Shown: positions 3,401 to 29,401 of the stretch, in pieces
How positions within the stretch are numbered: position 1 is the first letter of the stretch
Layout: each line of letters begins with the position of its first letter
Assembly (NCBI GenBank): GCA_024691125.1
Contig: JAILNV010000033.1
Coordinates: forward strand, 1 to 40,965
Reading direction: 5' to 3'
DNA length: 40,965 nucleotides
Source of the DNA: Lachnospiraceae bacterium
GTDB taxonomy: Bacteria; Bacillota; Clostridia; Lachnospirales; Lachnospiraceae
The notes under the pieces: generated by a model
Database searches by the model: none
Seen by the model: the letters and a program-made list of their open reading frames with translations, nothing else
What the model was told of the DNA's origin: nothing
Made by a program: the position numbers and the translations under genes

Positions 3401-6021
3401 AGACCGATCAAAGTTTAAAAATCAGCAATGTGTCAAATATCTGTGCGTACAACGGAATGCTCATCTACATGGATGGAGACACCCCGTCTATCAGGATGTA
3501 TTCTCCGAAGGATAACATGATCTACAATACCGAACTGTCTGTTCCGTCTTTTGCCGGCACCTCGAGAAAAGATGTAAGGTTCGTCAACGCAGGGAATGAA
3601 CTGTATCTTTTGCTGACCCTGCAGACCTATGACGATGATAAGAAGGAATATGTAGACAACAGAACAGAACTCTACCGGCTTGACTTGGCGAAAAAGGAAC
3701 TGCTGCACCTGTATACACTTAAGTCTGTGCAGAACTCATCTGCCATCAGCGCAGTTAAGGATGATAAAGGAAAAGTCACCCTTATCTCTCTTAACAAAAA
3801 AGACGAAAGTCATATAGAAAGAGAAAAGATTACAATTAACGAGGATCTTGTATCGTCCAATGCTGTAACGATAGAGCTTCCCGGTGGAGCCACCTTCGAC
3901 GAACAGGCTCTTGCGGGTGCCAATACCCAATACGGCATAGTTTTTACAGGCCCCTGTGACCATTCGGACAATACGGATAACTTCCTCTATAACCCGGGGG
4001 ATGATTCAATAGTAAAGTTACGTAAGCAGATAGCACCTAACCGTCCGGCCAGAACAATTGTGACTGAATATAAGGGTAGCACTTACTTTTTGGGCATTAA
4101 TATGTATGAGCAGAGCGGCTCGGTCTTTGCGAAAGCCGATAATGATGAATTCAGGAGAGGGTCAGAGCATAAGGAGCCCCTTCATTATTACGGCGACGAC
4201 AAGACCGGAGAGATCAATGACATACAGGGGATCGTTTACCTTGAAGCACCAAATAACGGTAAGGTTCCCATTGGAAAGAGTATAAAGATCACACCTAAAA
4301 TAATGGAAAAAGACGGTAGGCAGATAACTTATATCTGGTTCATTGAAGATGCCATGATCGCGACTGTGGATCAGTCGGGCAGGGTGACAGGTAAGGCAGG
4401 CGGCAGTACTCTTATCGGTGTCATGGGACGGGACAGTGCAGGAAATGTTTACAAAGGCGTGTACAAAGTTACTGTATATTCTCCGACAACCGGTATTAAA
4501 CTCAGCTCTAAGAAGCTTACAGTAAAGGGTGGAAGTAAGTTTGACCTGAGCGCGGTACTGACACCGGTGAATGCATTCAGAGAGGGTGTGGAATGGATTG
4601 TTTCCACTCCGGCCTCATATCCCGGGGTCATTGAAAAAACACATGAATCTTCCACTTCCGAAGTATACTCTGCAACCTTTAAAACACAGGAAGTCGGTGA
4701 GGATGTGCAGGTTAAGGTAACAGCCAGAGCTGTTGACGGAAGCAATAAATCGGCAACCTGCCTTGTTACTATTGCAGGGCCTGCGCCGGAACCCCCGGAA
4801 ATTAAAGTACCCGTCAAGTCAGCGGCCCTCTCGGACACCGGTACCATAAGCCTTGGAGCGGGCATGGAGCATGAAATAAGCCTTGTACGTATAAGCCCTG
4901 CGGAATGCAGCGGATACTCCGTTGAATGGAAGAGCAGCAGCGATGCCGTTACGGTATCAGGCAATAAAGCAGATAATTCCCGGGCTGTGGTAAGAGCCTG
5001 CAGGAAGGGAACGGCTAAGATAACTGCAGTTATTACCAATACAGCTCCGGGCGGTAAGAAAACCCTAACCATCAAGGGCCTGACTGTTAAGGTTGAATCC
5101 TCCCCGTTATCCGGTAATGAGATCAGGATATTCAATAAGAAAGAAGACATAACGGGAAGTGTAAGTGGGAACAGGCTGGAAGTCCGTAAGAGCCTCTCGC
5201 TGAAATCGTCCGTTTATTTGGACAGTGTTCCTGTGAGATCAAACAAAGCAAAGGTTCTGTGGTCAAGCTCGGATCCTTCCGTGGCTACGGTAACCAACGG
5301 AAAGGTGAAGGCATACAAAGAGGGTGAGGTCACATTTACGGCCATCCTGATGCCGGCAGAAGGCCAGGGAACAGAGAGCGTGAAAGCATCCTGCACATTC
5401 TATGTGTATAATCCGATCAGGGAACTTAAGCTGAGCACAAAAACTGTTCAGGGAGTCAGGGAAATACAAAAATATACGGATGTCTCTGTGCTGATAATGG
5501 CCAAGCATACAACGGCACCTAAAAGTAAGGATGATACAGTTCGAGAGAAGAAGACATATGCCTGGACAAGCTCCGATCCGAGTGTGGTGGAAATAGAAAA
5601 GGACGAGGATGACGAAGATTCGGATGAAGTATACGTTAGATGTAAAAAGACCGGTAAGGCAGTCATAACCTGTAAGGCACTTGATGGAAGCAAAAAGAGC
5701 GTTAAGTGTAATGTGACCGTATATGAAAGTGTCAGTGGAATAAAGATAACAGCCGGGAACCTTGGAACGGCAACGGTAGATACCTATAATGCCGAAGAGA
5801 TAACAGTGAGAGGCCTTGGCATAAAGAAGACCTTCACGATATCACCGAATCTTGAGCCGGCAGATGCTTCTTTCAGGGAAGTCACATATGCAAGCTCCAA
5901 CCCTGCGGCCGTTACCGTTAGCAAAAAGGGACAGGTTAAGCGTGTCGGTGAAGGCAGTGCGGATATTTACGTAACTTCGGTTGACGGCGGCTACACGGCA
6001 GTGTGCCATGTGACCAAGTGA
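496..6021 (+). CDS. Secreted subtilisin-like serine protease (S8) with C-terminal bacterial Ig-like repeats
   Basis: An exported endopeptidase of 1841 residues. The N-terminus is a classical signal peptide (basic MRSLKRR, hydrophobic core, VNAAP cleavage region). Residues about 165-205 look like an I9-type inhibitory propeptide (YTLKYIHSD ... ADPDVLFAEPDY). An acidic linker with three 12-residue repeats follows. The catalytic domain has Asp350 (VLDSGVD), His407 (SHGTHCAG), oxyanion Asn503 (ASGNES) and Ser736 (GTSMATP), so the triad is intact. About 130 residues are inserted between the Asn and Ser blocks. Residues 870-1240 look beta-rich, and from about 1245 to the end there are several BIG2-like Ig domains (repeats of WSSSDPSVATV and GKVKAYKEG type). 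No LPXTG or membrane anchor is visible, so retention would rely on non-covalent wall contact. AGGAGG sits 7 nt before the ATG. The gene is monocistronic, with its own promoter and a 3' inverted repeat. Confidence 0.93.
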   Translation: MRSLKRRIAVILTIVLTLTSVPYTGLPVNAAPLREDGADILLTGSESLTDETIVSEGIDLAQPDRVIEPETSDNAGDMSDKANTPEYEEGSVIVCVSTGKDHPSVTGDEIPNDRATVTDSLLDSAEDLMDVTEAVKESEESADAGDNSGDKNGAEGGISNDKAAEDGEYTLKYIHSDSYSTQQMIEMLEADPDVLFAEPDYIYHGTEDELLVEETIRDETRAVKGISEISHRGDEEDISEISDMDNEDKISETPSVDNEDKKSEIPGADNEDKMSENSDAYDEEDIRNISLGGTDEEVKEELTRDMSEGLKPDRTGRQYAYLNGPGGMDVPYWNNESHRNAEDTVVAVLDSGVDYEHEDLKDVMWDEGLLYPELTKLGGGRYGYNAIKEDSKGKAYRSNDPMDDQSHGTHCAGSVGAPWNGYGVSGTANGTRIMAVKAGNDKGGFASSDILKAFNYIKTAKEAGVNVVAVNNSWGGPAYANAFNFAVRELNLDNVICCFASGNESIDIDYTYKTVSYMRENDGLICVNSNDVRGSKSTFSNYGVRSADVSAPGTAIMSTVPTGLGKPDPLTSAPVIDSNGHEVKDDFGDDTTYFSYGSMGGSNVSFAQDDGKRVLKINNMSNKEYILTLSGNSLGSKPEYFALSARYDKDVELALFVCVRTRDGKYKECVPTKYLTDFYSFDNVYRLPDDMDLDHPVFQIFAFFKYGTVSATDALYINGISLTNERTNYGYMSGTSMATPAVTGEVAVIASRWPNDSAGRRAARVIASTTLRDALRNTSRTGGVANLRKALACDYSPVVNKAWIDEEGLLNLSGYFFGPEEGRVAINSSGADIEGCTVREWKGLGRDEWDDDGKNDEDIIKLDPGTNEVPVDEIKVTVSANSGRSGSRWLTVGGTDRASLNNTFYSRLPVPSPDDGKLYEGFERMLPGSGAALDGSIYYTGYKIDSEDETYCTWKYTLSADGITSGWTETDQSLKISNVSNICAYNGMLIYMDGDTPSIRMYSPKDNMIYNTELSVPSFAGTSRKDVRFVNAGNELYLLLTLQTYDDDKKEYVDNRTELYRLDLAKKELLHLYTLKSVQNSSAISAVKDDKGKVTLISLNKKDESHIEREKITINEDLVSSNAVTIELPGGATFDEQALAGANTQYGIVFTGPCDHSDNTDNFLYNPGDDSIVKLRKQIAPNRPARTIVTEYKGSTYFLGINMYEQSGSVFAKADNDEFRRGSEHKEPLHYYGDDKTGEINDIQGIVYLEAPNNGKVPIGKSIKITPKIMEKDGRQITYIWFIEDAMIATVDQSGRVTGKAGGSTLIGVMGRDSAGNVYKGVYKVTVYSPTTGIKLSSKKLTVKGGSKFDLSAVLTPVNAFREGVEWIVSTPASYPGVIEKTHESSTSEVYSATFKTQEVGEDVQVKVTARAVDGSNKSATCLVTIAGPAPEPPEIKVPVKSAALSDTGTISLGAGMEHEISLVRISPAECSGYSVEWKSSSDAVTVSGNKADNSRAVVRACRKGTAKITAVITNTAPGGKKTLTIKGLTVKVESSPLSGNEIRIFNKKEDITGSVSGNRLEVRKSLSLKSSVYLDSVPVRSNKAKVLWSSSDPSVATVTNGKVKAYKEGEVTFTAILMPAEGQGTESVKASCTFYVYNPIRELKLSTKTVQGVREIQKYTDVSVLIMAKHTTAPKSKDDTVREKKTYAWTSSDPSVVEIEKDEDDEDSDEVYVRCKKTGKAVITCKALDGSKKSVKCNVTVYESVSGIKITAGNLGTATVDTYNAEEITVRGLGIKKTFTISPNLEPADASFREVTYASSNPAAVTVSKKGQVKRVGEGSADIYVTSVDGGYTAVCHVTK
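1228..1335 (+). repeat. Three 36-bp tandem repeats inside the subtilase gene
   Basis: Copies start at 1228, 1264 and 1300, each opening with GATAATGAAGATAAAA and encoding DNEDK followed by a variable SE-rich tail. They form an acidic linker between the propeptide and the catalytic domain. The period is a multiple of three, so copy-number change would alter linker length without a frameshift. Confidence 0.85.
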
Positions 6022-6345: not shown

Positions 6346-8451
6346 ATGAGCAAAGAACAAAGGATACCTGAACTGTACGGGAGTCTTGTATTTAATGACA
6401 AGGTAATGCGTGACAAGCTTCCCAAGGATATTTACAAAGCATTGAGGAAGACGATAGAGAATAATACGCATCTCGAACTGGATGTAGCCAATTCGGTTGC
6501 AGTCGCAATGAAGGAGTGGGCAGTTGAGAACGGGGCAACACATTATACACACTGGTTTCAGCCGATGACAGGTTTCACCGCAGAGAAGCATGATTCCTTC
6601 ATCACACCGGTAGGAAATGGCGAGGTTATCATGGATTTCTCCGGTAAGGAGCTGGTTAAGGGCGAGCCGGATGCTTCAAGCTTCCCTTCGGGAGGACTGA
6701 GGGCAACCTTCGAGGCAAGAGGTTATACGGCGTGGGATCCCACTTCACCTGCATTTATCAAGGACGGAACACTGTATATTCCCACAGCCTTCTGTTCATA
6801 CACAGGTGAAGCGCTGGATAAGAAAACACCGCTGCTTAGATCGATGGATGCCCTGTCAAAGGAAGCTACAAGAGTGCTCAATAAGATAGGACAGACAGAT
6901 GTTACGGGCGTATCCACTACTGTAGGACCCGAGCAGGAATACTTCCTTATCGAGAAGGAAGCATATAAGCAGCGTAAGGATCTGATCTTTACGGGAAGGA
7001 CACTTCTGGGAGCAATGCCTCCCAAGGGACAGGAGATGGAGGATCACTACTTCGGAGCCATTAAGCCGAGAGTAGCCGCATACATGCATGACCTGGATCT
7101 TGAACTGTGGAAGCTGGGAATTCCCGCCAAGACCAAGCACAATGAAGTGGCACCCTGCCAGCATGAGCTTGCTCCGGTATTCGATACGACAAATATAGCG
7201 GTCGATCACAACCAGCTGACGATGGAAATAATGAAAAAAGTGGCTGAGAAGCATGACCTTGTATGTCTGCTCCATGAGAAGCCCTTCGCAGGCATTAATG
7301 GTTCCGGTAAGCATAACAACTGGTCAATGATCACCAATACAGGAGTGAACCTGCTTGATCCGGGCAAGACACCGGCTGACAATACCCAGTTCCTTATCTT
7401 CCTGGCAGCGATAATAGAAGCAGTGGATGAATATGCGGATCTTATGAGAGTATCCGTCGCAAGTCCCGGAAACGATCACAGACTGGGAGCCAACGAAGCA
7501 CCTCCGGCAATCATTTCGATCTTCCTCGGAGAGGAGCTTGAGAAGGTAGTCGAATCTATTAAAAATGACACCTTCTTTGAAAAGAGCGGCACAACCAAGA
7601 TGAACATCGGTACGACGGTGCTGCCTCATTTTACGAAGGATAACACTGACAGGAACAGGACTTCGCCGTTTGCCTTTACAGGCAACAAGTTCGAGTTCAG
7701 GTCGCTTGGATCTTCGTTATCCGTATCAGGGCCGAATGTGATCCTCAATACCGCGGTAGCGGAGGTATTGAGCAGATTCTATGAGAAGCTTAAGGACGTT
7801 CCGGATGATGGGATCGAGTCGGCGGTTCATGAGCTTGTAAAAGAGTCGATAACGGCTCATGAGAGAGTGATATTCAACGGAAACGGATATACAGACGAAT
7901 GGGTTAAGGAAGCCGAAAAGAGAGGGCTTTATAACTTAAGATCCACACCGGATGCACTTCCCGCGTTCATAGCCGAAAAGAACAAGGCACTGTTTGAAAA
8001 GCATCATATTTTCACTGAGAGTGAGCTTGAATCAAGATATGAGATACTGCTTGAGAACTACTCCAAGACGATTCATATCGAGAGCCTTACGCTTAAGGAT
8101 ATGGTTCTTACGGAGTTCATGCCTGCAGTGGGTGAGTATGCGGATCAGCTGACAGCTTCGGTAACCGCGAAGACCTCACTTGATTCACATCTTGGCTGCA
8201 AGGCTGATATGAAGATGATCAGGATCTTAAGCGACGGATACGACAAGCTGTTCGATCTTGTGGGCAAGCTTTCCGAGGATACGGACAAGGCTGAGAGCAT
8301 GGAGGATTCGCTGGCACAGGCTAAGTTCTATCATGATGAGATACTAAAGGATATGGAGCAGGTAAGAAGCCTGGCGGATTCGCTGGAAGTATACCTTCCC
8401 GACGGAGTGCTTCCGTATCCGAAGTATGAGGATATTCTGTTCTACGTGTAA
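6346..8451 (+). CDS. glnN: Glutamine synthetase type III
   Basis: ATP-dependent ligation of ammonia to glutamate, the main entry of ammonium into organic nitrogen. It acts in the cytoplasm. At 701 residues it has the length typical of the GSIII family (about 700) and is far longer than GSI or GSII. Visible family motifs are the glutamate/metal-binding [24 protein letters not shown], the glycine loop [19 protein letters not shown] and the arginine-bearing [24 protein letters not shown] lies 7 nt before the ATG. The promoter at 6177-6204 and two leader terminators suggest expression is controlled by premature termination. The next gene is an ammonium transporter-PII fusion, consistent with co-regulation by nitrogen status. 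Confidence 0.96.
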
Positions 8452-8456
8452 TTCCA

Positions 8457-8605
8457 GGGTCTAAATCCTGTCACCAGCACAAGCTTGCTTGATGGTGGTG
8501 ACTAGGATTTGTGACCCGCCCCAACATGAGCAAGAAGTGATGCGAAGCAGCACAGGATTGCGAATGTTGAGAAGGATTACGAAAGTGCGAAGCACGCAGT
8601 AATCT
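8457..8605 (+). repeat. Three-hairpin structured repeat, copy 1
   Basis: This copy begins 6 nt after the synthetase stop. Hairpin 1 (8457-8517) pairs GGGTC, AAATCCT and GTCACCA with their complements around an AAGCTTGCTTGA apex. Hairpin 2 is 8537-8553, with a GAA loop. Hairpin 3 (8574-8605) pairs GGATTAC with GTAATCT and carries an inner GTGC-GAA-GCAC. A second copy at 29129-29277 keeps the 27 bases at 8513-8539 unchanged and keeps hairpin 3 through compensatory changes. It could be a dispersed repeat or a structured RNA. I do not recognise it. Confidence 0.8.
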
Positions 8606-8622
8606 GGGAATTAATCTAATGG

Positions 8623-8712: not shown

Positions 8713-10467
8713 ATGGAAGAAATGATGAGTATTTTGGATGGGAAAGTATTTGGCGTCTGGTTCCTTATAGGAGCGGCGCTGGTATTCTGGATGCAGGCAG
8801 GTTTCGCAATGTGTGAAGCCGGTTTCACCAGAGCGAAGAATTCAGGAAATATCATTATGAAGAACCTGATGGACTTCTGTATAGGTACAGTTATGTGGTT
8901 CATCTGCGGTGCGTCGATAATGCTCGGCGAGAACATGCTTGGCGGTTTCTCGGGACGTTTTACCTTTGATGTGTTTACGAACTTTGCAGACTTCGACTAT
9001 TCATCCTTTGTATTTAACCTTGTGTTCTGTGCGACTACGGCAACGATCGTGTCGGGTTCGATGGCTGAGAGGACTAAGTTCTCCGCATACTGTGTGTATT
9101 CGGCAATAATATCGGCTATAATCTACCCTATCGAGGCACACTGGACCTGGGGCGGCGGCTTCCTGGCACAGTGGGGCTTCCACGATTACGCAGGCAGCAA
9201 CTGTATTCATATGGTAGGCGGTATATGTGCTCTGATCGGTGCATGGATGTTAGGTCCCCGTATCGGTAAGTTCACAAAGGATAAAGATGGCAAGATCATT
9301 AAAGTCAATGCCTTTCCCGGTCACAACCTTGTAGTGGCTGCACTCGGTGTTTTCATCCTGTGGTTCGGCTGGTACGGCTTCAACGGTGCTGCCGCAACAG
9401 ATATCCCGACACTTGGTTCGGTGTTCCTTACAACAACGGTGGCTCCGGCAGTGGCAACCGTAACCTGTATGATCTTTACATGGATCAAATACGGCAAACC
9501 TGATGTTTCGATGTGTCTGAACGCATCTCTCGCCGGTCTTGTAGCCATCACGGCACCGTGTGACGTTACCGACTGTGCAGGTGCTGCCATTATAGGTCTT
9601 GTAGGCGGCCTTCTGGTTGTATTCGGTGTATGGTTTACAGATAATGTAGTACACGTTGACGATCCCGTAGGTGCTGTTGCGGTACATATGATGAACGGTA
9701 TCTGGGGTACGATAGCTGTAGGTCTTTTTGCAACATCTTCAGCTCCCGGCTTTGCTGTGGCTGGTATAGAGGAAGGACTCTTCTACGGCGGCGGTGTAAG
9801 TCAGCTCATCAAGCAGCTTGGGGGTATGTTTGTTACCATAGCATGGACTGTAGTTACGATAATAATAGCTTATTCTATAATTAAAAAGACTATTGGTCTG
9901 AGAGTATCCGAAGAAGAAGAGATCCAGGGTCTTGACAGTACGGAGCACGGACTTGATTCGGCTTATTCGGGCTTTGCGATCATGGATATAGCAAACACGA
10001 TGACTATGGAAGTAAACGAGAATACAGACCTTGGTGTCGGCGAGTACGAAAAGGCAACGCCCGCGAAGATCAACGCTGCTGTACCTGTGGTAACACAGCC
10101 GTTCATCGATACCGGCATGAACAAAGTGGTTATCATTGCGAAGCTGTCAAGATACGATGTGCTTAAGAAGATGCTCAACGAAGCCGGCATAACAGGCATG
10201 ACGGTGACTCAGGTCATGGGCTGCGGCGTCCAGAAGGGCGGCGGTGCGAAATACCGTGGAGTTGAGGTTGATGCTACCCTTACCCCGAAGGTTAAGGTTG
10301 AGGTTGTCATAGGTAATGTTCCGATCAAGGATGTTATCGACGCAGCCAAGAAAGCTCTCTATACCGGTCATATCGGCGACGGTAAGATCTTCGTATATCC
10401 TGTAGAGAAGGTCATAAAGATAAGAACAGGAGAGGAAGACTTGGAGGCTCTTAAGGATGTAGAGTAA
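8713..10467 (+). CDS. amt: Ammonium transporter fused to a PII (GlnK-like) regulator
   Basis: A membrane ammonium channel of the Amt/Rh family with a covalently attached PII domain. Residues 1-410 are the channel: hydrophobic segments from residue 15, the family motif HWTWGGGFLAQWGFHDYAGS, and the pore histidines at His166 (IHMVGG) and His325 (VAVHMMNGIWG). A linker of about 60 residues follows, then residues 469-581 form a PII domain (MNKVVIIAKLSRYDVLKKML ... TGHIGDGKIFVYPVEKV). In ordinary PII proteins the T-loop carries YRGAEY with the uridylylated Tyr. Here the loop reads KYRGVEVDATL, so that Tyr is replaced by Val. PII normally plugs Amt, so tethering it implies intramolecular gating by nucleotides or 2-oxoglutarate. 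AGGAG lies 7 nt before the ATG. Confidence 0.95.
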   Translation: MEEMMSILDGKVFGVWFLIGAALVFWMQAGFAMCEAGFTRAKNSGNIIMKNLMDFCIGTVMWFICGASIMLGENMLGGFSGRFTFDVFTNFADFDYSSFVFNLVFCATTATIVSGSMAERTKFSAYCVYSAIISAIIYPIEAHWTWGGGFLAQWGFHDYAGSNCIHMVGGICALIGAWMLGPRIGKFTKDKDGKIIKVNAFPGHNLVVAALGVFILWFGWYGFNGAAATDIPTLGSVFLTTTVAPAVATVTCMIFTWIKYGKPDVSMCLNASLAGLVAITAPCDVTDCAGAAIIGLVGGLLVVFGVWFTDNVVHVDDPVGAVAVHMMNGIWGTIAVGLFATSSAPGFAVAGIEEGLFYGGGVSQLIKQLGGMFVTIAWTVVTIIIAYSIIKKTIGLRVSEEEEIQGLDSTEHGLDSAYSGFAIMDIANTMTMEVNENTDLGVGEYEKATPAKINAAVPVVTQPFIDTGMNKVVIIAKLSRYDVLKKMLNEAGITGMTVTQVMGCGVQKGGGAKYRGVEVDATLTPKVKVEVVIGNVPIKDVIDAAKKALYTGHIGDGKIFVYPVEKVIKIRTGEEDLEALKDVE

Positions 10468-12161: not shown

Positions 12162-12238
12162 TATAATGATAACTGCCTGGGACGGTACATTTGTGTTCAG
12201 ATGTGACATCGCGACTCCCGGGTAGTTATCTTTTATTT
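12162..12238 (+). promoter_or_regulatory. -10 element and structured leader of the permease/c-di-GMP gene
   Basis: A perfect TATAAT lies at 12162-12167, although its -35 is weak. From 12168 to 12182 the sequence GATAACTGCCTGGGA pairs over 15 positions (two G-U pairs) with 12216-12230, enclosing an inner 7-bp hairpin (ACATTTG / CAGATGT). TTTTATTT and then AAAGGAG and the ATG at 12251 follow. The shape is terminator-like or riboswitch-like. It lacks the conserved sequences of the known c-di-GMP-I class as I remember them. If transcription starts near 12174, only the inner 8-bp part of the stem is in the RNA. Confidence 0.5.
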
Positions 12239-12250
12239 AAAGGAGCATGT

Positions 12251-15200
12251 ATGAGCAGACAGAGCCTTGATGAACACTTATCGCTTAAAGGAGCATTGGC
12301 GTTTTCGATCGGAACCAGCGTCGGATGGGGATCGCTGGTTGTAACCTGTAATACATATCTTGCCAAGGCGGGTCCTCTCGGAAGCGTGCTGGGTCTTATC
12401 TGCGGTGCAGCCGTAATGCTCATAATAAGCCGTAATTATGCTGTTTTAATGCGTACCTTTCCGGAAGCCGGAGGCGCATATGCTTATTCCCGCGATGTTT
12501 TCGGGTTCGACTACGGATTCCTGACCGCGTGGTTCCTTGCAATGACCTATCTTGCCATCCTCTGGGGCAACGCAACGTCACTTCCTCTGTTCGCAAGGAT
12601 CTTCATGGGAGATGTTTTCAAAAAAGGCAGGCTGTATACCCTGTTCGGATATGATGTATATATGGGTGAAGCACTGCTGTCCATATTTTCACTGCTTCTT
12701 ATAGGCTGTCTCATTATACGCCTTAAACGGGCCATTAATCTTGCGATGATCATCATGGCTGCCACCTTCACCTTCGGTATAGCCGCCTGTTTTCTGGCGG
12801 CAGCCTTCGGCAGGAATGTAACATCCGCACCTTTGCTGCTGAATGACACGTCCGCCATATACCAGATACTGGGAATAGCTGTCATATCTCCCTGGGCCTT
12901 TATAGGATTCGAGAATATTTCACATGCGACCGAGGAAATGTCTTTTGACAGGAAGAAGATATCCGGTCTTTTGATCGTCTCCATAATAGTAACAACAGTT
13001 ATATATATAATGGTGACTCTTCTTTCGGTAACGGCATATCCCGAAAGATATGGGAGCTGGGTTGAATATATAAATGACATAGGCAGCCTTTCGGGGCTTG
13101 AAGCACTTCCTCCTTTTTATGCTGCTCATGCCTATCTGGGGGCTGCGGGCGTGGATATTCTTATTCTTGCCCTGCTTTCTCTTGTAATAACCAGTCTGAT
13201 AGGTAATATGTATGCTTTAAGCAGGCTGTTTTATTCAATGGCCAGGGATCATATACTTCCCGTACGGATGGCTGAACTTAATCATAACAATATCCCTGCT
13301 AATGCGATAAAATTCGTTGTACTGTTCTCAATACTCATTCCGTTTACCGGCAGAACCGCCATAGGATGGATACTGGATGTTACGACAATAGGAGCGACTC
13401 TGGTATATGCTGTGGTTTCCGCTGCCGCCATGAAGGTCTGCCACGAAAATGAGGATAAGAAGGGCAGATGTCTGGGTCTTGCCGGTCTTGTCTTTATGAT
13501 CCTCTTCGGAGCCTATTTCATGATCCCCAATTTTGTCTCGGAGACTACGGTCGCCAAGGAATCCTTCCTTCTCTTTATCGCGTGGAGCGTGCTTGGTTTC
13601 GTATCCTTCAGACTGGTGCTTAGGAAGGATAATGAGAGACGGTTCGGATCGTCGGTTGTTGTATGGATAGTCCTTCTGAGTCTTGTTCTGTTCGTATCCT
13701 TCGTATGGATGAGGCAGACAATGCTGTCGTCGGATGCGAAGATAAAGACAGAAGTAAGGGATTATTACGAAACAGGCGAGATGAAGGAGGACGATGAAGA
13801 CAGGGTGGAATTTGTTGAGAACAGGCTTGATGAGCAGGGCAGGGAGACGACCCGCACAATGCTTATTGCCATGGGTATGTTCGGCTTTGTTCTCCTGATT
13901 ATGCTGACCAATCACAGGTATATGAGCAGGAGGTCCATGGAGAGCGAGCTTCGGGCCAACACGGATACAATGACCGGTCTTAAGAACAAGCATGCCTTCA
14001 TCGAAAGGGAGAAGGAGCTTGACGCTCATATAAGGGATGGTCTTGTAAAGGATTTTGCGCTGGTTGTCTGCGACGTTAACGGGCTTAAGCAGATAAACGA
14101 TACCCTGGGGCATAAGGCCGGCGATGAATGGATTATAAACGCCGGTAAAATGATAGGAGAGATATTCCAGCACAGTCCTGTCTTCAGGATAGGCGGAGAC
14201 GAGTTCGCAGCCATTCTGACCGGCCGTGATTATAATATGCGCAGTGAGCTGATGAGACTGCTTCACGATCATTCGGTAGACCACATTGAGAATGGCGGGG
14301 TTGTGGTATCGGGAGGTATTTCAGATTTCATTCACGGAGAGGATGAGGATTTACATACTGTTTTTGTAAGAGCCGATGAACTGATGTATGAAGAGAAGAT
14401 GCTCCTTAAGAACCTCGGTGCTTCTTCCAGAGATGAGGCAGACGCAGCCGAAGACGATGGTGAAAACGAGGATTCTCTGGAGCTGATGAACAGTCTGATG
14501 GAGGAAAAAACGATCATCGACCTTCGGAGAAGCGTTCTCTTAGTCGATGACGAGATGATAAACCGCGAGATCCTCGGAAATTCACTGAGGTCAGGGTATG
14601 ATATACTGTATGCCCTGGACGGAATAGAAGCCCTGGAGCAGATAAGAGAGCATGGGGACAATCTGGCTCTTATCATGATGGATCTTATAATGCCGAGAAT
14701 GAACGGTGTGGAGCTTATAGGCAGGATTAAGGAGGATCCCGCTCTTAAAAATATCCCTTTTATCGTACTTACTACGGATCAGAAGGCAGAGGTCGAATGC
14801 CTGCAGCTGGGAGCTGCTGATTTTATCCCCAAGCCGTATCCTGCAGCGGAGATAATAAGGGCAAGGGTGGATAAGTGCATCGAGCTCTCGGAGGGAAGGA
14901 GTATCATCCATTCGACGGAGAGGGACGGTCTTACCAACCTGTTTAACATTGATTATTTCATAAGATATGTGCACCTCTTCGATCACCATTATCCGGATAC
15001 AGCGATGGACGCCGTCGTGGTGGATGTCAACCGCTTTCATATGATCAATGAACGCTACGGGAAGGATTACGGAGACAAAATACTTAAGAACATAGGTGAA
15101 AATGTAAGAGAGCTGGTCAGACAGCTTAAGGGTGTCGGCTGCCGTCAGGGCGCAGATACGTTCCTTATCTATGTCCCTCACCGGGATGACTATAACGGAG

Positions 15201-16204
15201 TGCTTGAAGTGCTGTCCGAAGGTCTGGGACACATAGATGAGACCGAGGACAATGACAGGAATGTAACCTTAAGGCTCGGTATTTACTATGATGCCGACAA
15301 GACCATTGATATTGAGCGCAGGTTCGACAGGGCCAAGATGGCTGCGGACAATATAAGAGGTAATTACGCCGCTTCGATCGGCGAATACGATTCGGGAATG
15401 CATGAGGATATCCTCTTTAAGGAAAGGCTCCTCGAGGATTTCAAGAATTCACTTGGTGATATGCAGTTCACCACCTTCTTCCAGCCGAAATTCGATATAA
15501 GGCCGGATGTTCCCCTGCTTAAGAGCGCTGAGGCGCTTGTTCGATGGGATCATCCCGAATTCGGAATCATAAGCCCCGGGCTGTTCATCCCGTTGCTTGA
15601 AGAGCATGGTCTTATCTTTGAGCTGGATCATTATGTGTGGGATGAAACGGCTGCCTATATCCGGTACTGCAAGGATACGTTTGGCTTCTCCGTGCCTGTT
15701 TCGGTAAATGTATCGAGAATAGATATGTTAAGGAGCGATCTTAAGGAGGTCTTTGACAGGCTGCTTCACAAATATGATCTTACGCCTGCCGATCTGCTGC
15801 TTGAGATTACCGAGTCGGCTTATACGGGGGATTCGGATCAGGTTATTACAATGGTTAACAGGTTCAGGGATGCAGGCTTTGGTATAGAAATGGATGATTT
15901 CGGAACGGGATATTCATCACTGGGAATGCTTTCGAAGCTCCCCATAGACGCGCTTAAGATGGATATGTCCTTTGTACATAACGCCTTCAGTGAGAACAGG
16001 GATATGAGGATGATCGAGCTTATCATCGATATAGCGGAGCATCTTAAGGTTCCCGTTATAGCGGAGGGTGTGGAGACAGAGGAACAGTATCTTACACTTA
16101 AGGAAATGGGCTGCGATATCATACAGGGATATTATTTCTCCAAGCCTGTTACGAAAGAAGAGTTCAGCAGATTTGTTATAGACAGGAGTAAAGTGAATGA
16201 CTGA
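12251..16204 (+). CDS. Amino-acid permease fused to GGDEF, receiver, degenerate GGDEF and EAL domains
   Basis: One 1317-residue polypeptide. Residues 1-470 are an APC-superfamily permease (about 12 membrane segments; family-like GFENISHATEE). One or two further membrane helices bracket a charged segment near 490-545. A GGDEF domain follows, with intact RIGGDEF at 648-652 and no RxxD inhibitory site just before it. A receiver domain has LLVDDE and phospho-acceptor Asp811 (MMDLIMP). A second GGDEF-like domain has GADTF (967-971) in place of GGDEF and is probably inactive. The EAL domain has E1094-A-L, EITES, DDFGTGYSS at 1215 and AEGVETEEQ, all looking competent. It may therefore both make and hydrolyse c-di-GMP under control of substrate binding and of a kinase. 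AAAGGAG lies 5 nt before the chosen ATG. An upstream in-frame ATG at 12191 falls inside the leader stem. Confidence 0.93.
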   Translation: MSRQSLDEHLSLKGALAFSIGTSVGWGSLVVTCNTYLAKAGPLGSVLGLICGAAVMLIISRNYAVLMRTFPEAGGAYAYSRDVFGFDYGFLTAWFLAMTYLAILWGNATSLPLFARIFMGDVFKKGRLYTLFGYDVYMGEALLSIFSLLLIGCLIIRLKRAINLAMIIMAATFTFGIAACFLAAAFGRNVTSAPLLLNDTSAIYQILGIAVISPWAFIGFENISHATEEMSFDRKKISGLLIVSIIVTTVIYIMVTLLSVTAYPERYGSWVEYINDIGSLSGLEALPPFYAAHAYLGAAGVDILILALLSLVITSLIGNMYALSRLFYSMARDHILPVRMAELNHNNIPANAIKFVVLFSILIPFTGRTAIGWILDVTTIGATLVYAVVSAAAMKVCHENEDKKGRCLGLAGLVFMILFGAYFMIPNFVSETTVAKESFLLFIAWSVLGFVSFRLVLRKDNERRFGSSVVVWIVLLSLVLFVSFVWMRQTMLSSDAKIKTEVRDYYETGEMKEDDEDRVEFVENRLDEQGRETTRTMLIAMGMFGFVLLIMLTNHRYMSRRSMESELRANTDTMTGLKNKHAFIEREKELDAHIRDGLVKDFALVVCDVNGLKQINDTLGHKAGDEWIINAGKMIGEIFQHSPVFRIGGDEFAAILTGRDYNMRSELMRLLHDHSVDHIENGGVVVSGGISDFIHGEDEDLHTVFVRADELMYEEKMLLKNLGASSRDEADAAEDDGENEDSLELMNSLMEEKTIIDLRRSVLLVDDEMINREILGNSLRSGYDILYALDGIEALEQIREHGDNLALIMMDLIMPRMNGVELIGRIKEDPALKNIPFIVLTTDQKAEVECLQLGAADFIPKPYPAAEIIRARVDKCIELSEGRSIIHSTERDGLTNLFNIDYFIRYVHLFDHHYPDTAMDAVVVDVNRFHMINERYGKDYGDKILKNIGENVRELVRQLKGVGCRQGADTFLIYVPHRDDYNGVLEVLSEGLGHIDETEDNDRNVTLRLGIYYDADKTIDIERRFDRAKMAADNIRGNYAASIGEYDSGMHEDILFKERLLEDFKNSLGDMQFTTFFQPKFDIRPDVPLLKSAEALVRWDHPEFGIISPGLFIPLLEEHGLIFELDHYVWDETAAYIRYCKDTFGFSVPVSVNVSRIDMLRSDLKEVFDRLLHKYDLTPADLLLEITESAYTGDSDQVITMVNRFRDAGFGIEMDDFGTGYSSLGMLSKLPIDALKMDMSFVHNAFSENRDMRMIELIIDIAEHLKVPVIAEGVETEEQYLTLKEMGCDIIQGYYFSKPVTKEEFSRFVIDRSKVND

Positions 16205-17603
16205 TATTCTGGATAAAATAGACAGCGTTATGTACTATCCCATACTTATTATTGTAATGGCGCTGGCGGGTATTTATTTTACAGTGCTGACAAAGGGGGT
16301 TCAGATACGTCTGTTTGCCGAATCTGTACGTCTGCTTAAAGAACCTGCTGAGGATAAGAAGAATATTTCATCCTTGCAGGCAATGCTGGTTTCCACAGCA
16401 TCCCGCGTAGGCACCGGGAATATAGTAGGGGTATCAACAGCCATATGCCTCGGAGGCCCGGGAGCCTGTTTCTGGATGTGGATCATGTGTATAATCGGCG
16501 CATCATCTGCCTTCATTGAAAGTACGCTCGCTCAGGTTTACAAAAAAAAGAACTATTACGGAGGGTCATACGGAGGCCCCGCATATTATATTGAGCGGGC
16601 ACTTCATGCACCGTTTCTTTCCAGGCTTTTCTGTATCTTTCTCATTGCCACCTATGCAGTGGGATTTAATCTCCTGTGTTCCTATAATCTTCAGTCAACC
16701 TTTGAAGTATATTCGTTCTATAATCCGGATATAACTCCTGTTATTATAGGCTGCATACTTGCAGCTTTTACAGGATACTGCCTGCTTGGAGGCGGACGAC
16801 GCATAGTGCGTCTTACAGGTCTTATAGTTCCTTTTATGGGAATTTCATATGTTATTATTTCCCTTATAGTAATTCTTTTTAATATAAAATCGGTACCGGC
16901 CATGTTCGTCATGATCTTTACCGATGCATTTGATTTTAAGTCCATTTTGGGCGGTGTTGCAGGATCTTGTATGGTTTATGGTATCAAGCGTGGCCTTTAT
17001 TCCAATGAAGCCGGAGTGGGTTCGGCTCCCAATGCTTCCGCAACTGCCAGGGTATCGCATCCTGCCAAGCAGGGACTGGTACAGACTCTGTCAGTATATA
17101 TCGACACGCTGCTGTTATGTACGGCCACGGCTCTTATGTGTCTTTCAAGCGGGGTAGAACGAAGCGAAGCCGTATCGGGAGCACCTTATGTACAGAACGC
17201 CATATCAACCGTATTCGGAAAGGCAGGTCCTGTATTCATTACTCTGGCAATGATCCTGTTTGCGTTTACCACATTACTCGGAAACCTCTATTATGTAGAG
17301 AATGCCCTGGTTTATCTGAATCATAAAAAAATCCCATCCAAACAGTTTATACGGTATTTCTATATAGGCTGTTCGATGGTTGTGCTGATAGGAGCGGTCA
17401 TCCCCATGAATGCGGCCTGGGCGCTTGCAGATATAACCATGGGTGGCATGACGCTTATCAATCTGCCGTCATGTATGATCCTGGGCAAGGTAGCCATCGA
17501 TACACTTAAGGATTATGAACGTCAGAGAAAGGAAGGTAAATCCCCTGTATTTTACGCCAAAAATATCGGTCTGGCTGAGGATGAACTGGATTTCTGGAAG
17601 TGA
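16197..17603 (+). CDS. Sodium:alanine-type symporter (AGCS family)
   Basis: Integral membrane transporter for small neutral amino acids coupled to sodium. At 468 residues it has the usual AGCS length. About 11 hydrophobic segments are visible, with the family motifs STASRVGTGNIVGVSTAI, GGPGACFWMW, YGGSYGGPAYYIE and GLYSNEAGVGSAPNASA. Its ATG overlaps the last 8 nt of the permease/c-di-GMP gene, with AGGAG 8 nt upstream inside that gene, so the two are almost certainly translated from one mRNA. The pairing suggests that amino-acid uptake and the c-di-GMP signal are linked. The substrate cannot be fixed from sequence; alanine or glycine is the default for the family. Confidence 0.92.
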   Translation: MTDILDKIDSVMYYPILIIVMALAGIYFTVLTKGVQIRLFAESVRLLKEPAEDKKNISSLQAMLVSTASRVGTGNIVGVSTAICLGGPGACFWMWIMCIIGASSAFIESTLAQVYKKKNYYGGSYGGPAYYIERALHAPFLSRLFCIFLIATYAVGFNLLCSYNLQSTFEVYSFYNPDITPVIIGCILAAFTGYCLLGGGRRIVRLTGLIVPFMGISYVIISLIVILFNIKSVPAMFVMIFTDAFDFKSILGGVAGSCMVYGIKRGLYSNEAGVGSAPNASATARVSHPAKQGLVQTLSVYIDTLLLCTATALMCLSSGVERSEAVSGAPYVQNAISTVFGKAGPVFITLAMILFAFTTLLGNLYYVENALVYLNHKKIPSKQFIRYFYIGCSMVVLIGAVIPMNAAWALADITMGGMTLINLPSCMILGKVAIDTLKDYERQRKEGKSPVFYAKNIGLAEDELDFWK

Positions 17604-17678: not shown

Positions 17679-18914
17679 ATGAAAATACATAAGATAGAAT
17701 GGTTTGACGAATTTGAATGTATCGGAGGGGAATGTCCGCAGACATGCTGCAAGGGTTGGCTTATTCCGCTTGATGAAGAAGATCTGCTTAGGTACAGGAA
17801 AGAAAGAGGCAGGCTTACACTGAGCCTTTTTACCGCAACGGCAGGATTTACAAGGAATAGGATCAACCTGTGCTCGGGAAAATGCCGGTTCCATACGAGA
17901 GATGGTCTGTGCCGGCTTCAGCTTAAAAAGGGACATGACTTCATTCCCTGGGCATGCAGGAGCTTTCCGCGGTTCTATCGTAATTACGGGGAGTTCGAAG
18001 AGAGATACCTTGACCTTTCCTGCATAGCTGCAGCACGGATTTTTGTCCGGAATATGGGAAGTATGAGAATTATTTCGGAAGCTGCAACCGCCCCTGAGAC
18101 TAAACCCTGTACCACCAATGATGATATGGCGTATCTTAATACGTTGCTTAAAATGCGTGAAGATATTATAAGAACGGTATTAGCTGTGTATTCAGAAGAC
18201 GTTACAGAGAATAACAGTGTTCTGACGACAGTTTTTTCATATGTCTGTCATATTCAGGATCTATATGCCGGGGGCTGTGAGGAAATCCAAATACCTGCTT
18301 TTCATGACTATTGCAGCCAGTGGGATAAACCTGCATGCAAACCACAGACTGATACCTCTTCATCCGGTAAAAGCTCTGTTTTCCCGCTCAGGGTTAATAT
18401 GATGAGCTGCCTGACGGAAACGATCAAATATTATTTTGGTCAGAAAAAGACAGGCACCGCATTATATGGTTTGCTTTCGGATGCTCAGGATATCCTCGCG
18501 GATTACAGAAGAAAAGATGTGGATATTGCTGTTAAGATAAACGAAATCTTAGCCTCAGGTACACCGCTGTCCATGCTGCCGGGCGCATATCTGTCCTATT
18601 ATATGTATCAATACTTCCTGGATGCATATGAAACTTACAGCTTACGCAGGATAACCGCGCTTGGGATCATCCATACCAATATGATCCTCTTTCTTATACT
18701 TGTCCTGTCCGAGAAAAGGACAGCTAAATCAAACAAAACAGCGGCATCGGAAAAAGCCATGGAAGTGACAGGAGAGAGCATGACGGAGGGAAGGAAGACA
18801 GCAGATATTTCCATGGAAGATATCGCGTACATTATTGCACTGTATAACCGTAAGGCATATTTTAACGAAACCATACAGAACAACCTGTATAAAATATTTG
18901 AAGAAATGACATAA
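17679..18914 (+). CDS. FliB-like, Cys-rich putative lysine N-methylase family protein
   Basis: A 411-residue cytoplasmic protein. The N-terminal 125 residues carry the characteristic cysteine pattern ECPQTCCKGW, CSGKCRFH, GLCRLQ and WACRSFPR, as in the FliB flagellin lysine N-methylase family and related CxxCxxCC iron/zinc-binding proteins. The C-terminal part is helical and less conserved, with a Ser/Lys/Glu-rich insertion around 345-375. FliB methylates flagellin lysines, but no flagellar gene is near, so the substrate is unknown. The ATG has no good Shine-Dalgarno, and a REP-like half site lies between it and the nearest purine-rich tract. It follows the symporter by 75 nt and may be co-transcribed. 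Confidence 0.6.
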   Translation: MKIHKIEWFDEFECIGGECPQTCCKGWLIPLDEEDLLRYRKERGRLTLSLFTATAGFTRNRINLCSGKCRFHTRDGLCRLQLKKGHDFIPWACRSFPRFYRNYGEFEERYLDLSCIAAARIFVRNMGSMRIISEAATAPETKPCTTNDDMAYLNTLLKMREDIIRTVLAVYSEDVTENNSVLTTVFSYVCHIQDLYAGGCEEIQIPAFHDYCSQWDKPACKPQTDTSSSGKSSVFPLRVNMMSCLTETIKYYFGQKKTGTALYGLLSDAQDILADYRRKDVDIAVKINEILASGTPLSMLPGAYLSYYMYQYFLDAYETYSLRRITALGIIHTNMILFLILVLSEKRTAKSNKTAASEKAMEVTGESMTEGRKTADISMEDIAYIIALYNRKAYFNETIQNNLYKIFEEMT

Positions 18915-29097: not shown

Positions 29098-29128
29098 AAT
29101 CCCATCCTCCTAGTATAATATGATTAAA

Positions 29129-29277
29129 GGGTCAAAAGCCTGTCAACACCACAAGCTTGCTTGATGGTGGGGACAAGGATTTATGACCCGCCCCAACATG
29201 AGCAAGAAGTGGGGCTTAGCACCACGGAATTGCGAATTGTGGGTAGGATTGTGGGAGTGCGAAGCACGGAACAATCC
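29129..29277 (+). repeat. Three-hairpin structured repeat, copy 2
   Basis: Same design as 8457-8605. Outer GGGTC (29129-29133) pairs with GACCC (29185-29189), the apex AAGCTTGCTTGA is identical, hairpin 2 is 29209-29225, and hairpin 3 (29246-29277) pairs GGATTGT with ACAATCC and keeps the inner GTGC-GAA-GCAC. Here both neighbouring genes are on the opposite strand, so the element is not fixed in orientation relative to transcription. A further hairpin, GAACCATT / AATGGTTC, lies at about 29362-29394. Confidence 0.8.
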
Positions 29278-29401
29278 GTTAATCATAAAAAAGTATAGTT
29301 TTTACCCCTAAATCATAATATGTATTGCCCCCTCAAAAACAGTCGGCGGCCAATCGTCAGAACCATTCTGAATTATGCTTAGCATAATGGTTCCTTCTCA
29401 G

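Follow-up and report, generated by a model that had tools for sequence, protein, structure and literature searches.

What does an amino-acid permease do when it is made as one chain with enzymes that synthesize and degrade cyclic diguanylate (c-di-GMP)? The question is raised by a single open reading frame (ORF) at 12251-16204 (+) in a 40,965-nucleotide stretch from a Lachnospiraceae bacterium (GenBank assembly GCA_024691125.1, contig JAILNV010000033.1, positions 1 to 40,965; hereafter "the window"), whose 1317 uninterrupted codons translate to one 1317-aa protein. In order, this protein contains an APC-type permease, two further transmembrane helices (TM13 and TM14) enclosing a helical hairpin, a GGDEF domain, a receiver (REC), a degenerate GGDEF domain and an EAL domain. 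We document its architecture and family, its conserved sites, the changes of output domain among its relatives and its relation to separate genes. From these sequence comparisons we consider it rather probable that an APC-fold receptor, perhaps a transporter too, sets the diguanylate cyclase, and that phosphorylation sets the attached phosphodiesterase. The parts of the gene are as follows.

12251-16204 (+): whole ORF, 1317 aa, APC-TM13/14-GGDEF-REC-degenerate GGDEF-EAL (translation, Pfam)
12278-13579 (+): APC-type amino acid permease domain, residues 10-443 (PF13520 and PF00324 above cut-off; AlphaFold model like LAT1, AdiC and GkApcT)
13655-13720 (+): TM13, about residues 469-490, including Trp486 (part of model helix 469-508)
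13721-13852 (+): acidic helical hairpin, predicted extracytoplasmic, residues 491-534 (model and charges)
13853-13924 (+): TM14, about residues 535-558, within a single helix 515-569 that reaches the GGDEF domain (model)
13955-14398 (+): GGDEF domain 1, residues 569-716, intact motif at 14192-14206, no RxxD at the usual place (Pfam, motif check)
14534-14860 (+): receiver domain, residues 762-870, Asp811 at 14681-14683 (Pfam, motif check)
14921-15406 (+): degenerate GGDEF domain 2, residues 891-1052, GADTF at 15149-15163 (domain-query match, motif check)
15437-16147 (+): EAL domain, residues 1063-1299, motifs intact, EAL at residue 1094 (Pfam, motif check)

Pfam places AA_permease_2 at residues 10-443 (E 2.1e-25), GGDEF at 569-716 with a second stretch, Response_reg at 762-870 and EAL at 1063-1299. 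The original prediction, made from the sequence before any search, had put GGDEF at 648-652, the receiver aspartate at 811, GADTF at 967-971 and EAL at 1094, all in the permease frame, and each of these places is exact; the TM13-hairpin-TM14 element that the structural model sets between permease and GGDEF was absent from it. AAAGGAG precedes the ATG at 12251, and an in-frame TTG at 12191 is a possible alternative upstream start.

Relatives (cited by our locus handles, e.g., L056) define a family with a wide range of outputs. Residues 1-556 of the window protein matched 47 of 299 Lachnospiraceae genomes (E<=1e-20); by architecture, the permease-signalling fusions among these matches are 26 proteins from 21 of the 299 genomes, the remainder being plain permeases, permeases joined to iron-containing alcohol dehydrogenase, or proteins outside the architecture scan. 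Scanning 84,980 named genomes gave at least 578 relatives, of which the best 80 were used, and the output frequencies below lean toward the window's kin. By record, these 80 are mostly metagenome-assembled genomes (MAGs) of Lachnospiraceae, other Clostridia, Erysipelotrichaceae and Coriobacteria-type bacteria, many naming a ruminant-gut source; two Treponema, one Desulfovibrio and one Chloroflexi MAG are also among them (putative assignments, by record). Searches with a linker model matched 4/398 phylum genomes and 4/295 order genomes, the window's own genome in both sets, with candidates partly scored.

The window ORF, 28 from the family search and the 80 named relatives form a set of 109 ORFs, in which domains were called with queries cut from P0001, L054 and L055, and with Pfam on a subset of proteins. 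By architecture, 45 are APC-GGDEF, 26 are APC-GGDEF-REC-GGDEF-EAL ("fused" hereafter) and 4 are APC-PAS-GGDEF; the histidine kinase (HK) types comprise 20 APC-HK-REC, 2 APC-HK-REC-REC and 2 APC-PAS-HK-REC-REC; one is APC-EAL (with a degenerate GGDEF too, by eye), and nine were scored APC only. Those nine include HD domains in L072 and L116 (Pfam) and a like domain in L117 (by eye), three plain permeases (L024, L026, L031) and three short or interrupted ORFs (L077, L098, L118). Across these bacteria, the outputs attached to the permease with TM13/TM14 are GGDEF, GGDEF-REC-GGDEF-EAL, hybrid kinase, PAS-GGDEF, PAS-kinase, HD-GYP and degenerate GGDEF-EAL. A tree was built from 107 permease modules (the short, interrupted L077 and L098 left out; truncated L118 unlabelled; the three plain permeases as outgroup); explaining the eight output labels on it, with plain permease as one of them, takes at least 14 changes, while shuffled labels average 53.3. 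Judged from our trees, which are quick-method with long branches, outputs track kinship and yet appear to have been exchanged or lost repeatedly.

Some relatives hold additional stretches. Many fused ones extend about 145 aa beyond EAL, a C-terminal part lacking in the window protein and without Pfam match in the L058 copy (4723-5184); L133 (5468-11134) has about 500 additional N-terminal residues and L053 (2936-8305) about 800 additional C-terminal residues, both without Pfam match. The amino-acid permeases fused to iron-containing alcohol dehydrogenase (L034:262-2958, L046:1305-4073, L048:1725-4691, L049:1510-4374) were set aside as a distant APC group.

The recurrence of the fused architecture also settles whether the reading frame is genuine. 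A frameshift or assembly join of two genes would be conceivable in that relatives do possess both kinds as separate genes. However, the same architecture occurs in 26 of the 109 ORFs with the window's own counted (25/108 others), and although one of the 26 (L108) ends inside EAL where its contig stops, L057, from Lachnospiraceae bacterium AC2029, carries the full architecture on a 3,859,732-base contig. When the gene is compared with L056, L057 and L059, differences are more frequent at the third codon position than at the first or second in 7/7 segments, both inter-domain stretches included, with a narrow excess in the short GGDEF-REC linker. We therefore discarded the join, which independent genomes already refute and whose probability is negligible; the continuous frame assumed at the outset stands.

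Both permease models score far above their Pfam cut-offs (PF13520, 90 bits against 27; PF00324, 81.7 bits against 24.6), and sequence profile matches are to CAT1, CAT4 and GkApcT. An AlphaFold model of residues 1-745 (66 sequences; mean pLDDT 88.7) has a predicted LeuT-type fold, for which the Foldseek list of PDB structures is led by LAT1, AdiC and GkApcT, with BasC also there; AdiC (5j4i) gives a TM-score of 0.82 by target length. We chose 12 substrate-site, gate and coupling positions, either those of GkApcT/BasC or adjacent (PMC5803215, PMC6472337; "in part" here and below marks citations to excerpts of a source, as with both of these), and mapped them with one HMMER alignment. In 25 modules (20 kinase type, 3 fused, 1 GGDEF, 1 PAS-GGDEF), 6/12 mapped positions are invariant vs 24/436 core columns (hypergeometric p 1.1e-5), and in the 66-row set 7/12 vs 43/436. 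Specifically, G25, W26, G27, W215, E221 and Y252 of the TM1/TM6/TM7 amino-acid site are invariant in 25/25 modules and the six other mapped positions vary; Trp26 and Trp215 occupy the positions of GkApcT Thr43 and Phe231. Across 107 rows that include three plain permeases, Trp215 and Tyr252 occur in 107/107 and Glu221 in 104/107. As Trp215 and Tyr252 are present in the plain permeases too, the site is conserved but not special to the fusions.

A TM5 lysine is important for transport in GkApcT and BasC (PMC5803215, PMC6472337, both in part), and in the corresponding column, where the alignment is weak, lysine occurs in 0/107 rows (the three plain permeases included) and glycine in 86; the GkApcT proton residue Glu115 is Thr in the window protein. 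This lysine is not family-defining, since AdiC likewise has no positive residue at the site (PMC6472337, in part). Its absence from 107/107 rows makes it possible that the window protein is a receptor without transport. The original prediction had proposed a "transceptor," i.e., a transporter that turns amino-acid binding or flux into c-di-GMP changes and is gated further by phosphorylation. The sequence data support this proposal in part: our preferred reading keeps a sensor of transporter fold that would drive the c-di-GMP enzymes, together with a further input by phosphorylation, and transport itself may or may not accompany it.

The signalling domains are kept throughout the fused proteins. 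Active-site and metal-binding residues of the first GGDEF are kept, its motif being intact in 26/26 and a DxNxLKxxND-type pattern present in 26/26, and the second GGDEF is degenerate in 26/26; the receiver Asp and conserved Lys are each present in 26/26; EALVRW is present in 26/26, and the other EAL catalytic motifs occur, with minor variants, in the 25 complete copies. An RxxD inhibitory site, which is unnecessary for cyclase activity, was found at the usual distance in 0/26 fused and 0/49 single-GGDEF proteins (45 APC-GGDEF, 4 APC-PAS-GGDEF). By these motifs the window protein is a predicted maker and breaker of c-di-GMP.

Some relatives encode parts of the same kinds in separate genes. Counting as neighbours ORFs of at least 150 aa within 3 kb (many contigs end sooner), we found a separate REC-GGDEF-EAL gene, on the same strand and no more than 100 nt away, at 8/44 named APC-GGDEF loci (L073, L079, L081, L085, L091, L093, L097, L101) vs 0/23 named fused loci (Fisher two-sided p 0.044; post hoc, with flanks incomplete at some loci). 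At three of these eight loci a hybrid kinase gene stands on the opposite side from the REC-GGDEF-EAL neighbour. Hybrid kinase genes lie within 100 nt in L065, L079, L091 and L097, beside the fused gene in L095 and, in L073, after the phosphodiesterase gene. Because relatives keep adjacent REC-GGDEF-EAL and kinase genes, the window protein looks, by sequence, like the fused form of a multi-gene circuit. At L088:3535-13697, three permease-sensor genes follow one another; their outputs are kinase, GGDEF-REC-GGDEF-EAL and GGDEF.

A tree of 26 fused phosphodiesterase parts, 11 nearby separate genes and 7 window-genome paralogues places the fused REC-GGDEF-EAL parts in one clade (support 100) inside a family (support 99), together with the 11 separate genes and the paralogue L002; the other six paralogues fall outside it. 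L002 (G000:C39:10648-11613, -) is a separate REC-GGDEF protein with a 362-aa open frame and no EAL. The simplest account has a single fusion, after which the N-terminal part was lost or exchanged; the later step is one that we infer. In the window genome, the best match to the L079 kinase is the C213 hybrid kinase (56% identity over residues 448-1140, 839.1 bits; next 406.7), by sequence a candidate phosphodonor for the window protein.

How might these parts work together? We propose that the receptor is built on an APC (SLC7-like) permease fold and that an amino acid or similar small ligand would fill the permease substrate site. TM13, the hairpin and TM14, whose helix is continuous, would relay the conformational change to a GGDEF dimer and so alter c-di-GMP synthesis. 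The REC-degenerate GGDEF-EAL half would be a phosphodiesterase set by Asp811 phosphorylation from a separate hybrid kinase, and the single polypeptide would unite cyclase and phosphodiesterase arms that some relatives hold as adjoining genes. The ligand class, the dimer, the directions of effect, the kinase partner and any additional transport are what we infer here. The sensor reading is strengthened because several outputs occur on one permease module, the substrate site is conserved and hybrid kinase genes lie near some relatives. Several points weigh against it. The substrate site is equally kept in three plain permeases, so its conservation does not prove sensing; the p of 0.044 for an adjacent phosphodiesterase gene is post hoc and modest, with 36/44 named APC-GGDEF loci having no such gene (some contigs end nearby) and 27/45 APC-GGDEF loci having no signalling neighbour within 3 kb, while 18/45 have one; and the C213 kinase differs in its N-terminal half (a weak Cache match) and is encoded among unrelated genes. 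Moreover, the SLC5 domain of CbrA is reported not to be essential for signal perception (PMC9100948, in part), so sensing need not reside in a transporter domain.

That CbrA precedent also suggests a reading in which the functions are uncoupled, the permease transporting and the signalling part sensing something cytoplasmic. For the window protein we judge this unlikely: one unbroken model helix links TM14 to GGDEF, Pfam shows no extra sensor domain between permease and output (APC-GGDEF, fused and HK-REC proteins run), and the TM13 residue Trp486 is kept across output types, in 25/25 modules, 65/66 rows and 103/104 signalling-type rows (the three plain permeases have a gap there). The kept substrate site and the membership of a permease family would also suit a working transporter whose GGDEF/REC/EAL part merely regulates transport. 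Yet histidine kinases and HD domains are found on this same module, the GGDEF/EAL motifs are kept in 26/26 fused copies although an appendage that only regulates would have no need of them, and the TM5 lysine of GkApcT/BasC is absent (though likewise absent in the three plain permeases); such reverse regulation has, in our view, a low probability.

The membrane element between permease and GGDEF raises a further alternative, with the TM13-TM14 hairpin as the sensor and the permease as passenger. A helical hairpin outside the cytoplasm, flanked by two TM helices, is an arrangement like that of ordinary receptors, and the model has it, TM13 lying in helix 469-508 and TM14 in helix 515-569, which runs to GGDEF. 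The hairpin is, however, the least conserved of five regions compared (mean entropy 2.67 vs 1.79 for the permease) and is just 17-25 residues long in 9/22 kinase-type relatives, and we regard a sensory role for it as very improbable. With the hairpin variable and, in those relatives, short, and with Trp486 kept, sequence and model favour the permease as the sensor and TM13/TM14 as the coupler.

The surroundings of the gene were compared as well. The next gene is

16197-17603 (+): AgcS-type sodium:alanine symporter (TIGR00835, 428.7 bits)

and the predicted 8-nt overlap with it is confirmed (start at 16197, stop codon at 16202-16204). The suggestion of a second transporter on the mRNA of the fusion is weak: when the window's neighbours were searched for at 85 loci (E<=1e-20), AgcS lay near the gene only in L056, the closest relative, and there upstream, and a conserved symporter partner was rejected. 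GS-III, AmtB-PII and PurF, absent from the 85 loci at the same threshold, were also rejected as partners. The gene is followed by one for glutamine synthetase in G193, a genome of the same genus, and by one for asparagine synthase in L056, cases too few to use; the four L057 neighbours compared are other kinds of gene. Elsewhere in the window, 8713-10467 (+) encodes an AmtB ammonium transporter fused to a PII regulator, a pairing common in the family (a single match spans both parts in about half of 100 family genomes), and 17679-18914 (+), downstream of AgcS, encodes a homologue of the flagellin lysine-N-methylase FliB. Two Clostridiales-1 RNAs lie at 8449-8613 and 29121-29285 (+), the second adjoined by a GA-cis RNA (29317-29401, -). 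In the 5' leader of the fusion gene, a stable hairpin (12168-12230, z -4.69) directly follows TATAAT at 12162-12167. Rfam gave no match to it, the rest of the genome holds no second copy barring one 30-nt match, and no comparable leader hairpin is obvious upstream of the gene in L056, L057 or L154.

We see an even case for an undescribed receptor class, in which an APC fold with TM13-hairpin-TM14 would be a bacterial sensor that can be exchanged among GGDEF, GGDEF-EAL, HD-GYP and hybrid kinase outputs, the window protein being a single-chain set-point device (ligand to cyclase, phosphorylation to phosphodiesterase). No description of APC-permease fusions to GGDEF, EAL, HD-GYP or kinase was found among the titles and abstract openings listed from open-licence PMC literature. 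If the proposal is true, many proteins nameable only as permease or diguanylate cyclase would be receptors for amino-acid-like ligands, tying nutrient sensing to c-di-GMP in bacteria, many with ruminant-gut source records. With one transporter fold on several enzyme outputs, the way in which transporter conformations are turned into signals could be tested directly—a question also for CbrA and Ssy1—and ligand coupling could be measured on the GGDEF-only members, single chains of about 740 aa with one reaction each.

Fusions of transporters to signalling domains are already known. The nearest known kind, the SLC5/STAC transceptors (CbrA, CrbS, RpuS), share a whole secondary transporter as N-terminal part, with outputs that are kinases and are said to include GGDEF (PMC5715377, in part). 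They use an SLC5 domain, whereas the membrane part of the window protein matches AA_permease models only (Pfam); they have a soluble STAC linker, which in CbrA packs beneath the transporter (PMC13022988, in part), in place of which the window protein has a predicted TM13-hairpin-TM14, unlike a soluble four-helix bundle. No Pfam match falls between permease and output in the window protein, the library's inclusion of a STAC model being unconfirmed. GGDEF-REC-GGDEF-EAL and HD-GYP outputs further distinguish the window family. Yeast Ssy1 is an APC-type amino-acid receptor for which an inward-facing, occluded signalling state has been proposed (PMC12958826, in part), but it is eukaryotic and signals via its partners Ptr3 and Ssy5, without a fused enzyme. 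AdiC, BasC, GkApcT and LAT1 have fold and substrate-site positions in common with the window permease, yet were solved as transporters without fused signalling domains, and GkApcT and BasC possess the TM5 lysine that is missing here. The C-terminal degenerate GGDEF-EAL half recalls DibA and DosP (NCBIfam), which have other inputs and whose equivalog cut-offs lie far above the scores of the window protein (260 vs 980 bits and 249 vs 857, respectively). Finally, the 5TMR/S-component receptors (PMC11109136, in part) likewise pair a membrane domain of transporter fold with outputs that can be exchanged (PAS, GGDEF, EAL, kinase), but on a different, small membrane fold rather than an APC permease.

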